Source: Acholeplasma sp. OttesenSCG-928-E16
GTDB taxonomy: Bacteria > Bacillota_I > Bacilli_A > Acholeplasmatales > Acholeplasmataceae
NCBI GenBank assembly: GCA_030266845.1
Contig: JAJDIT010000009.1
Coordinates: 1 to 36,195 of the forward strand
DNA length: 36,195 nucleotides
Direction of reading: 5' to 3'
Shown here: piece by piece, positions 17,586 through 35,545 of the stretch
How positions within the stretch are numbered: the stretch's first letter is position 1
Layout: every line of letters begins with the position of its first letter
Notes under the pieces: generated by a model
Database searches by the model: none
Told to the model about the DNA's origin: nothing
What the model saw: the letters and a program-made list of their open reading frames with translations, nothing else
Program-made: the position numbers and the translations under genes

Positions 17586-18558
17586 TAGGATTTCCTTTCT
17601 TTGAGAAAAGCTTTTTAAATAACATTGGAGCTAATAAAGCAGCCCAAATTCCAATCATAAAGTACCTAATAAAGTCTAACAATAAATTGTCAACTTGGAT
17701 CAAATCAAATAAAGCACCAACACCTTTTTGAATCCCAAATGCAACACCTAGTCCGATTACCCCTTTTAATATTTGAAATAATAGAATGTTATTGACATCC
17801 ATTTGAACATATTTTTTTTCAAAATAATAACCAATTAGAAATGCCGAAAATCCACCAGCCGCTAAATAAATATCATGCAGACTATCATATTGTTTGGTAA
17901 GATCATCAAAAAGGATATTTTTTAAAAACGATTCCAATAAAATTACGGCTAAAATAAAGAAACCAGCGATCCCTAATGACCAAATGTGTTCTTTATCACC
18001 CATTTTTTCCACGATTTTAAAGGTTACGAAAGTAACTAAAACCCCAATCGCTAAGCCAGTTAAAACATCAGTTGGATAATGGACGCCTAAATATAGCCTA
18101 GAAATAGGAATTAATATCATGTAAGCAAGCAAAACCCATTTTAACCATTTAAACTTTTTGTTGTATCCCATAAATAGGGCGCTAGATATAGAACCAGTTG
18201 ATGTTGAGTGTCCAGATGGGAAAGAGGAACTTTCTTCAAGCGGGCCAATTAATTTGACACCCTCTTTAGTTGTCTCATTATAAGGATATGCTTGGTATGG
18301 TCTTAATCGATCAGCAGCAACCTTTACTACCCCAGTAACTACTGAACTAGCAATAAATCCCATCGCAAATTTATGAGCAAATTTCTTATCCACAATCCAA
18401 TATAATAAAGCAACTAATACAATAAAGAAATATTGATCTCCTAAAATTGTGATTGTCTTAAAAATAAAATCAAAAAAACCATTTGAAATAGCCTGAATAG
18501 CACGAACTATCTCAACTTCCCAATTAGTAATCCCATCTACAAAACTTAGTACATTCAT
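17545..18558 (-). CDS. PAP2-family membrane phosphatase
   Basis: This 337-residue protein is a type-2 phosphatidic-acid phosphatase. The three motifs are complete: KVAADRLRP (79-87), PSGHS (114-118) and SRLYLGVHYPTD (153-164, catalytic H160). About five to six membrane spans surround them, and residues 185-320 add roughly four further spans that basic PAP2 proteins lack. Substrates in the family are lipid phosphates such as phosphatidate or undecaprenyl pyrophosphate; which applies here is unknown. It follows the patatin gene by 15 bases, so two lipid-active enzymes are made together. Confidence 0.92.
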   Translation of the reverse strand: MNVLSFVDGITNWEVEIVRAIQAISNGFFDFIFKTITILGDQYFFIVLVALLYWIVDKKFAHKFAMGFIASSVVTGVVKVAADRLRPYQAYPYNETTKEGVKLIGPLEESSSFPSGHSTSTGSISSALFMGYNKKFKWLKWVLLAYMILIPISRLYLGVHYPTDVLTGLAIGVLVTFVTFKIVEKMGDKEHIWSLGIAGFFILAVILLESFLKNILFDDLTKQYDSLHDIYLAAGGFSAFLIGYYFEKKYVQMDVNNILLFQILKGVIGLGVAFGIQKGVGALFDLIQVDNLLLDFIRYFMIGIWAALLAPMLFKKLFSKKGNPNGDSKEELLEVNE

Positions 18559-33746: not shown

Positions 33747-33762
33747 ATCACAGGGTTGTTGT
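33747..33762 (-). repeat. 16-bp direct repeat, copy 1 (Rhs junction codons)
   Basis: ATCACAGGGTTGTTGT (plus strand) is repeated exactly at 35385-35400. On the minus strand this copy is in a short open stretch reading VYNNPVIEQYVA then TAG, with a TAA 8 codons before the NNPV. NNPV is the end of the Rhs/YD-repeat core. It lies about 20 bases after the recombinase remnant's stop. Confidence 0.75.
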
Positions 33763-34191: not shown

Positions 34192-34225
34192 AATAGGCAA
34201 TCAAACTATTGCTTGATTGCCTATT
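34192..34225. repeat. 13-bp perfect inverted repeat
   Basis: AATAGGCAATCAA (34192-34204) and its exact complement (34213-34225) flank an 8-base loop. It lies 53 bases beyond the lipoprotein stop and could end that transcript, but the following bases (TTCACTCTTTG on the minus strand) are a poor U tract. The rest of 34131-34278 shows no gene. Confidence 0.7.
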
Positions 34226-34278: not shown

Positions 34279-34770
34279 TCACTTCACCTGAAAGGCAAAA
34301 TTAGAATTCACCAGTTTATTGAAATCTGCAGAGGTAACAAATCTTGCTGTTAGTCCTTTTTTATTACCTTCAGCATCATATTCCCCAACAAAATTACTAA
34401 ACTCTGAGGAACAAATTGTCAATATGTCTCCATTTTTATATCTTATCATTATTGAATTACCCGTGGGAGAATTCGAAAACTTTGTCATTTTATCAGATAA
34501 ATGAAAGTGTACCTTAGATAGATCATTAAGAAATCTTTCATGATTTTCACTCTTCATAACTTCTAAGAACTCAACTTTTTCAAAATCAAAAGGTTCTATA
34601 TCTTCTAATCCCTTAACAGTGTTTATATTTGGAAAATCATAATTGATAAGTGATATTTCGGCCATTTTTCTTTGCAATTCATGCGTATCAAAAAAGTAAT
34701 CTGACGGATCACAGGCAACCATCGTTAAACTAAATAAAAATAGTGTAAAAATCAAAAATATTCTTCTCAT
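34279..34770 (-). CDS. Putative lipoprotein next to Rhs tip (candidate immunity)
   Basis: The 163-residue product starts with a lipoprotein signal: MRR, a hydrophobic core and TMVAC with lipidated C20, followed by Asp. The mature part (21-163) is soluble, with acidic and aromatic residues and no family I recognise. It starts 10 bases after the tip gene stop, with an AAGGAG site overlapping the junction. That strong site contrasts with the lack of one for the tip. Immunity genes of Rhs tips sit exactly there, so protection against the tip is a reasonable inference, unproven; an ordinary membrane lipoprotein is the alternative. Confidence 0.75.
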   Translation of the reverse strand: MRRIFLIFTLFLFSLTMVACDPSDYFFDTHELQRKMAEISLINYDFPNINTVKGLEDIEPFDFEKVEFLEVMKSENHERFLNDLSKVHFHLSDKMTKFSNSPTGNSIMIRYKNGDILTICSSEFSNFVGEYDAEGNKKGLTARFVTSADFNKLVNSNFAFQVK

Positions 34771-34780
34771 ATAACTCCTT

Positions 34781-35389
34781 TCAGTCCCAAAGCAAAAATA
34801 AGAACGCTGCTGGAGGACAAATCATACTTGTTGCGTAATATAACCATGCCCTAGCCTTTACCTCATTACTGTGTACCCTTCCTTGAACTCCCCCAAGAAT
34901 GTCTGCCAATGTTTCCCAAGGAGCAGAATAGTATCCAGACCCTCCAGGCTTATCCCAAGGTCCAAGTGCTGGTGGAGATGTGATTCCAACAGTTATTCCA
35001 TATGTTCCAATCCCCATCATCATTGCTTGCCAATTGTGTCCTCTTTCGTGTCTTAGTGTATCTATACTCGAATATCTATTCAACGAAATGGCATAAATCG
35101 AGCCTGATCTTCCACTATCCTTTAAAAAAATCGGAACCCCTTTATAGAACGATACTTTATTTGAACCATAAACACTCGATTCATTTGTATTAAATGGATT
35201 CCATCCTATGGCATTCATATCACTTCTAATGTCCTTATCCCAAATTGAAGCCACTGCCATTCCAACATAACTGCCCGTTGATACTACTACTTGAGCTAAA
35301 ACGCCACCAACTGGTGTGAATAATAGTATTCCTAGAGTAATTAACAAAGCCAATATTGGTAAATGCCCGCTTAAATCTGTATACATCAC
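34781..35389 (-). CDS. Detached Rhs-type C-terminal tip with HExxH protease motif
   Basis: The 202-residue frame begins in the Rhs/YD-repeat end motif: minus-strand codons from 35413 read IAYCHNNPVMYTDLSGH, but a TGA precedes them (35414-35416). A hydrophobic stretch (9-47) with glycine follows. The C-terminal half has LRHERGHNWQ (H114, E115, H118), a zinc metalloprotease HExxH motif, and WETLADILGG (E159, D163) as plausible third-ligand segment, a layout known in Rhs tips of other bacteria. The start would be GTG or ATG at 35389/35386 without ribosome site, so free translation is doubtful. It is best read as an orphan toxin tip cut from its core. Confidence 0.75.
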   Translation of the reverse strand: MMYTDLSGHLPILALLITLGILLFTPVGGVLAQVVVSTGSYVGMAVASIWDKDIRSDMNAIGWNPFNTNESSVYGSNKVSFYKGVPIFLKDSGRSGSIYAISLNRYSSIDTLRHERGHNWQAMMMGIGTYGITVGITSPPALGPWDKPGGSGYYSAPWETLADILGGVQGRVHSNEVKARAWLYYATSMICPPAAFLFLLWD

Positions 35390-35400
35390 AGGGTTGTTGT
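35385..35400 (-). repeat. 16-bp direct repeat, copy 2 (Rhs junction codons)
   Basis: An exact copy of 33747-33762, on the same strand and coding in frame NNPVM at the start of the tip. Similarity reaches a few bases further upstream (CTGT before the repeat in both). Confidence 0.75.
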
Positions 35401-35485
35401 GACAGTATGCAATTCAATATATAAAGTCTAGTACTTTCTTTTATTACTACACTTATATTTAATCATAATTATATTGTAAAAGTCC

Positions 35486-35491: not shown

Positions 35492-35545
35492 TCATCTACA
35501 TTTAGGTTAGTGTTAGGACAGAAATTGTCCGATTCGCTATTATAT

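Follow-up and report, generated by a model that had tools for sequence, protein, structure and literature searches.

The analysis showed that an Rhs toxin tip, a lipoprotein gene and a fragment of a large serine recombinase, which lie one behind the other in the window, are quite probably the decayed remnant of a small mobile element; such an element would carry a tip, its immunity gene and a recombinase, and would displace the older tip of an rhs gene. The window is the whole analysed stretch of 36,195 nucleotides, contig C34 of a 1.13-Mb MAG that consists of 34 contigs. The features of the locus are collected in Table 1.

Table 1. Features of the locus and their positions in the window.
Feature	Position	Strand	Basis or remark
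Leader-like region; resembles the leader that the complete rhs operon has on contig C10	35486..35600	(-)	115 bp; shares TCGGACAATTTCTGnCCTAAC
Rhs toxin tip, metallopeptidase-like	34781..35413	(-)	frame of 210 codons, counted from the stop before it
Rhs core-end piece, 37 bp	35375..35411	(-)	matched to the complete rhs genes on contigs C30 and C10
Proposed left attachment junction	at CCTGTGATG in the core-end piece 35375..35411	(-)	position from comparison with relatives
16-bp direct repeat ACAACAACCCTGTGAT, left copy	35385..35400	(-)	exact match
HERGH motif, residues 122-126 (counted in the 210-codon frame; 114-118 in the earlier numbering)	35036..35050	(-)	predicted helix 117-133, pLDDT >90
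ExxxD (E167...D171), candidate third zinc ligand and partner	34901..34915	(-)	conservation
Candidate immunity protein of immunity family A, a lipoprotein of 163 aa with lipobox cysteine 20	34279..34770	(-)	homologues behind the same tip
Perfect hairpin AATAGGCAATCAA...TTGATTGCCTATT, terminator-like, past the lipoprotein gene	34192..34225	(-)	sequence
DUF4368 large serine recombinase, C-terminal 116 aa	33780..34130	(-)	Pfam DUF4368, E 5.5e-10, 39.8 bits, cut-off 25
Right copy of the 16-bp direct repeat ACAACAACCCTGTGAT, proposed to be what remains of the right attachment site	33747..33762	(-)	exact match

The tip frame (35413-34781) opens directly past a stop codon with IAYCHNNPVMYTDLSG, which is the end of an Rhs core, and contains the motifs HERGHNWQ (as LRHERGHNWQ) and PWETLADILGG. 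The locus has the arrangement of a polymorphic-toxin tip-immunity cassette, with a variable tip that starts from the core-end motif and a small candidate immunity gene immediately behind it. The original prediction that the tip is an orphan was supported: just six core residues (18-20 bp) stand upstream of PVM, the NCBIfam profile Rhs_assc_core (TIGR03696) covers only the last 16 of its 76 positions (18.7 bits against a cut-off of 32.5, and 16.3 bits in the genome search), and a complete Rhs core with the associated core domain was not found before the tip in the NCBIfam profile search. Full rhs genes that share the NNPV sequence, which the same prediction had proposed to look for, are present elsewhere in the genome, on contigs C30 and C10, and their core ends are 97% and 95% identical to that of the window over 37 bp, respectively. 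The genome-wide search for the core-end sequence with at most two mismatches returned only these two genes, the two sites of the window and one weaker match. The complete rhs genes were considered as recent donors of the tip and rejected, as their tips differ and neither has a recombinase beside it.

The annotated GTG start of the tip falls within the NNPV codons, and a Shine-Dalgarno sequence is absent. Since no ribosome site precedes it, the tip of the window is probably silent, that is, not translated on its own. Promoter-like matches in this region were no commoner than in shuffled sequence. The comparison of synonymous and non-synonymous changes (pS 0.65-0.74, pN 0.28-0.37) is near saturation and points only to past constraint on the tip family, saying nothing on the activity of the window copy.

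The recombinase fragment aligns to residues ~413-536 of relatives of 526-547 aa and is only 24-32% identical to the intact ones; the N-terminal resolvase catalytic domain, which the relatives have, is absent from it in the alignment to full-length recombinases. The fragment, the right copy of the repeat and the leader-like region are additions to what the original prediction had noticed. No other DUF4368 match was found in the same genome, so the remnant lacks any obvious helper of its kind. The 16-bp repeat brackets the tip, the lipoprotein gene and the recombinase fragment, so that copies of the putative attachment sequence stand at both ends. The CC of the right copy sits 25 bp past the recombinase stop, and the corresponding distance in related elements is 23-24 bp. 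The right copy is not followed by a tip start, and therefore the displaced tip must have been lost there; similar losses were found in the genomes G330, G340 and G336. Moreover, the left flank of the right copy is TATACAACAAC instead of the usual CATnACT. The missing displaced tip and the atypical flank are weak points for the window copy, not for the family. With its core absent, its recombinase truncated and no second DUF4368 match in the genome, this copy looks decayed, and its layout would fit a 3-kb element minus ~1.4 kb of recombinase. The hairpin listed in Table 1 is absent from the list of the consensus scan.

Around core-less tips of relatives, the same order was found repeatedly: rhs core, tip, immunity gene, large serine recombinase, displaced tip and immunity gene. 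Such arrays are present in the loci L077, L102, L067, L104 and L074, the first of which adds a second recombinase and a third tip. The full-length relatives of the recombinase possess the Resolvase, Recombinase, zinc-ribbon and DUF4368 domains. The displaced tips start at the codons PVM, and their left flank is not core but belongs to the recombinase ahead (VISDYIT, GYRHMT, LYNT and others). The distance from the recombinase stop to the junction CCnGT is fixed for each subtype at 98, 110, 117 or 23-24 bp.

The ends of the elements were located by comparing genomes of different genera. In G016 and G027, members of two genera, one and the same element sits in different rhs genes and ahead of different displaced tips. 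Their rhs cores share ~77% mean identity before the first CCnGTnATG, from where the identity is 100% over the 260 bp that were tested; the match stops at the next CCnGTnATG, 3220 bp further on, behind the recombinase. As both ends are mapped in this pair, the element, on sequence comparison, is a unit of tip, immunity gene and recombinase that ends at the core-end codons. A second pair of genera, G027 and G325, shares a block of 2574 bp with 98.6% identity that also stops at the junction, where the left 60 bp are 100% identical up to CC and the right side only 43%. The sequences show the boundaries of the elements, the order of their parts and the association of recombinase and tip, and the pattern is consistent with the attL and attR sites expected of a serine integrase with a crossover inside ~TCCnGTnATG. 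Neither an excised circle nor an empty and occupied pair of otherwise identical strains was seen.

Several further observations concern the same sites. Exactly six core residues (18-20 bp) before PVM, preceded by non-core DNA, were noted for seven core-less tips in unrelated places (window 35413; L068, L073, L101, L104, L110), and this stub and the conserved right side add up to roughly the length of a minimal serine-recombinase attB. In L066 (G273:C30), two direct repeats TTATCTCTGACTACATTACTCCnGTnAT at 17743 and 18913, an element-type half-site, flank a cassette of HExGH tip and lipoprotein. One chromosomal place, which by eye lies between a DnaB-like helicase gene and Dps/release-factor-like genes, is occupied by a recombinase array in L101 (G330:C42) and by a single HExGH orphan in L072 (G337:C61); these are two species of one genus and a natural pair for working out insertions. 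The arrays of the loci L067, L071, L077 and L101-L110 contain many further Rhs tips that have been displaced, and the small immunity candidates beside them are diverse; some are, by eye, RDD-like membrane proteins.

The survey of DUF4368 recombinases across 160 genomes of the order gave 22 matches. A displaced Rhs tip follows directly after 11 of them, and an Rhs core end after one. Four others, that of the window among them, retain the half-site but have no tip that can be recognised, and the remaining six are followed by nothing of the kind. On these counts, the association of the recombinase with displaced tips in relatives is far beyond chance. The broader rule that any DUF4368-type recombinase stands beside tips was rejected, since only the clade closest to the L077 recombinase does so and 22 of the 28 scored class homologues do not. 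The Rhs-linked recombinases are therefore a specialised group and not serine recombinases at large. The six matches without a tip count against tip displacement as an explanation of the locus, as do the description of DUF4368 recombinases as multi-targeting (PMC10083194), the low identity of the fragment in the window to intact recombinases and the failure to see an excised circle or an empty and occupied strain pair.

In the proposed mechanism, the recombinase would join the site of a circular element to the conserved rhs core end, between the codons YCxNN|PVM. The site of the circle would consist of the recombinase stop, a spacer of ~25 to 120 bp, the crossover in TCCnGTnATG and the tip start. 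Upon integration, the incoming tip would be fused in frame to the core with its immunity gene and recombinase behind it, and the old tip would come to lie downstream of these, orphaned from its core and flanked on its left by DNA of the element. Repeated rounds would produce arrays of the type core-tip-immunity-recombinase-tip-immunity-recombinase-tip. The window copy would subsequently have lost the rhs core, the catalytic part of the recombinase and the displaced tip. The circular form, and the recombinase as the agent of this reaction, are the parts that we infer.

The original prediction had described such cassettes as kept to exchange tips by recombination, which was not supported as stated. 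If this recombination were homologous, the locus would be an ordinary stored orphan, displaced earlier and held for recombination with complete rhs genes, and the recombinase fragment would be unrelated debris. Orphan arrays are generally well known, the 37-bp near-identical core end is common to both complete rhs genes, and homologous recombination between an orphan and rhs is documented in Salmonella according to the account in PMC4927057, which cites that work. However, neither complete rhs gene is on the contig of the window, and homologous recombination would have only a short stretch of 37 bp to act on. The second 16-bp copy, moreover, occupies the attachment-site position of intact elements to within one or two base pairs, and the association found in half of the surveyed matches is far beyond chance, which makes a stored cassette unlikely. 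The junctions point instead to a large serine recombinase as the agent of an insertion that displaced the older tip, and this copy looks decayed.

The motif TCGGACAATTTCTGnCCTAAC was found in only two places in the genome, the leader-like region upstream of the tip and the leader of the C10 operon with its complete rhs gene. Because the upstream region resembles the C10 leader and the motif occurs nowhere else in the genome, the locus suggests that a whole rhs operon was once present in this place, and that its deletion reached to six codons short of the junction. It could then be supposed that the operon was deleted in place and that the tip and the immunity gene had been active there without ever being recombinase-borne. 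The leader fits equally as part of the host of an element and is thus compatible with the mobile-element explanation, whereas deletion in place leaves the second 16-bp copy and the recombinase fragment behind the immunity gene unexplained, and we regard it as very improbable. The arms GGACA...TGTCC, at 35512-35536 of the window and at G000:C10:73-97, occur at two genome sites only and may be an operator or leader element.

The tip of the window is, judged by its homologues, a real Rhs tip. A complete Rhs protein of 1781 aa in G051, from the same order, ends in this tip with 55% identity over its whole length, and the homologous tips in G051, G064 and other genomes come after a complete core. 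Further members were found in the order and in the class and in named MAGs of Acholeplasmataceae, Anaeroplasmataceae, Bacilli and Clostridia, in keeping with the Mollicutes-like lineage that had been proposed from the letters. The pairing of HExxH with a downstream E/D pair, noted in the original prediction, was borne out: H122, E123, G125, H126, Q129, W166, E167, A170 and D171 are invariant in 11 of 11 aligned members, all of which thus conserve the zincin-type combination of HExxH and a downstream acidic ligand. In two divergent members, WYERWAT replaces PWExxAD and the glutamate is retained.

The AlphaFold2 model of the tip, built from the family alignment, reached a pLDDT of 84.6 and a pTM of 0.81. 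It consists of three strands (87-112), the HERGH helix (117-133) and a helix (165-174) bearing E167, with long hydrophobic helices both before and after this part. The peptidase reading had been staked on H114, H118 and E159 (earlier numbering) not lying far apart; HERGH and E167 do stand on neighbouring helices of one confidently predicted domain, but a solved fold to match it was not found. Foldseek against the PDB gave no significant match for the tip model, the best weak one being a zinc peptidase (E 4.8). Likewise, searches of Pfam, NCBIfam and PDB sequences with the tip returned nothing significant, and Pfam over the 11 members gave no meaningful family and nothing above threshold. The tip is most likely a zinc metallopeptidase, a role that we infer from the conserved motifs and the predicted layout because no solved fold matched.

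The lipoprotein gene begins 10 bp after the tip stop, and its ATG is preceded by AAAGGAG, so that the strong ribosome site reported earlier was confirmed and the gene looks translatable. The protein has a lipobox (VAC) with the cysteine at residue 20. The AlphaFold2 model of the lipoprotein (pLDDT 82.3) had no significant Foldseek match in the PDB, and family and PDB-sequence searches (Pfam, NCBIfam) with this protein gave nothing significant. Homologues beside Rhs tips were looked for and found repeatedly: the lipoprotein of the window is 35% and 34% identical to those behind the same tip in G152 and G273, and it aligns with others too. G051 and G064 carry a second family (B) in this place, which is unrelated in sequence to family A and whose two members share 44% identity. 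Among the fetched loci, a lipoprotein gene comes next after the HExGH tip in 14 of 14 cases and after other Rhs tips in 6 of 50 (Fisher p 8e-10), where the p-value serves only as a guide since the loci are partly related, a few control rows are spurious and L045 holds a tip-like frame outside the 14 that has no lipoprotein behind it.

This linkage supports the proposed role in immunity; given its contrast with the other tips, the lipoprotein is very probably the immunity protein of the tip. The control also rejected the notion that lipoproteins trail any Rhs tip. A lipid-anchored partner, which had been called unusual, is the rule for this tip, and the cassette is more than a chance arrangement, with the motif and the same neighbour recurring in more than 15 other loci. 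Because the partner is lipid-anchored, the tip likely acts outside the cytoplasm, at the outer face of the membrane, and two unrelated lipoprotein families behind one tip family would be expected from selection for the same place of action. That the lipoprotein is an unrelated surface protein and the tip not a peptidase would suit the lack of a family match for either, but it is the least probable explanation of all in view of the invariant HExGHxxQ and ExxxD and of two sequence-unrelated families linked to the same tips.

Displaced tip-immunity modules are known, and integrase and transposase genes have been noted between orphan modules (PMC4927057). The orphan CdiA-CT/CdiI and Rhs-CT/RhsI pairs are likewise core-less tips with an immunity gene, displaced 3' ends standing in arrays (PMC4927057). 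In those systems recombinases are noted in general terms, whereas here a specific clade stands at a fixed offset from a defined junction, the element ends are mapped to a precision of a few bases, and every element brings a tip, an immunity gene and a recombinase of its own. For effector genes of the Vibrio T6SS, sequential displacement has also been proposed (PMC5361080). Large serine recombinases of the TndX-like DUF4368 type have the same architecture with a C-terminal DUF4368 (PMC10083194); that clade is described as multi-targeting and Rhs is unmentioned in the main text, while the subset found here is tied to one target, the rhs core end.

As regards the toxin, PVC-metallopeptidase is described with the signature HExxHxxQ-E and is reported to follow Rhs repeats as a tip (Zhang et al. 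2012, PMC3482391). Both PVC-metallopeptidase and Tox-MPTase1-5 are Rhs-linked zincin-like tips, and the tip of the window has the HExxHxxQ-E signature; it is likened to PVC-metallopeptidase by this described signature only, as a profile relationship was not obtained with Pfam. In the survey of PMC3482391, lipoprotein immunity is given only for Imm65 with Tox-JAB-1. The pair VgrG2b-PA0261 (Tpe-Tpi) combines an HExxH effector that acts outside the cytoplasm with an envelope-exposed immunity protein, which is a lipoprotein in Enterobacteriaceae (PMC6899460); VgrG2b is, however, a Gram-negative T6SS spike protein, and no sequence or fold match to the tip was found. TslA-TilA of the type VII secretion system joins a Gram-positive toxin to an extracellular immunity lipoprotein (PMC10730906), yet this toxin is a lipase and not an Rhs protein. 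Given the relatives of VgrG2b-PA0261 and TslA-TilA, lipid-anchored or envelope immunity to exported peptidase and lipase toxins has precedent.

A published recombinase that targets the rhs core end and carries a tip and an immunity gene was not found in the literature covered, mostly without subscription papers, which is weak evidence. The exchange of polymorphic toxin tips is usually ascribed to homologous recombination or noted as 'integrase genes nearby', and recombinase-borne replacement of Rhs tips appears to be a mechanism that we did not find described. We consider it likely that 'tip-replacing elements' form a class, in which a dedicated large serine recombinase, with the rhs core end as its target, would travel with a tip and the matching immunity gene, replace the resident tip in frame, shelve the old one and spread between genera; such a class would explain many of the core-less tips in Mollicutes-like Bacilli. 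Junction, enzyme and product can each be seen in the sequence, which makes the mechanism directly testable, with a defined recombinase, a candidate attachment site of ~40 bp and the in-frame fusion as a readout. The junction rule helps to locate element ends and new tip-immunity pairs, and the consistent link of lipid-anchored immunity with one peptidase tip suggests that the tip acts on the outer face of the membrane.

The complete rhs genes of the same genome (L004 10289-13125 on C30 and L005 146-2666 on C10) stand in an operon behind a small protein that is holin-like by eye and has no Pfam match. The same operons carry a Mur-ligase-like enzyme (Pfam Mur_ligase_M) ahead of rhs, and a similar order is present in L074. 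The pairing of the Mur-ligase-like protein with Rhs is conserved.
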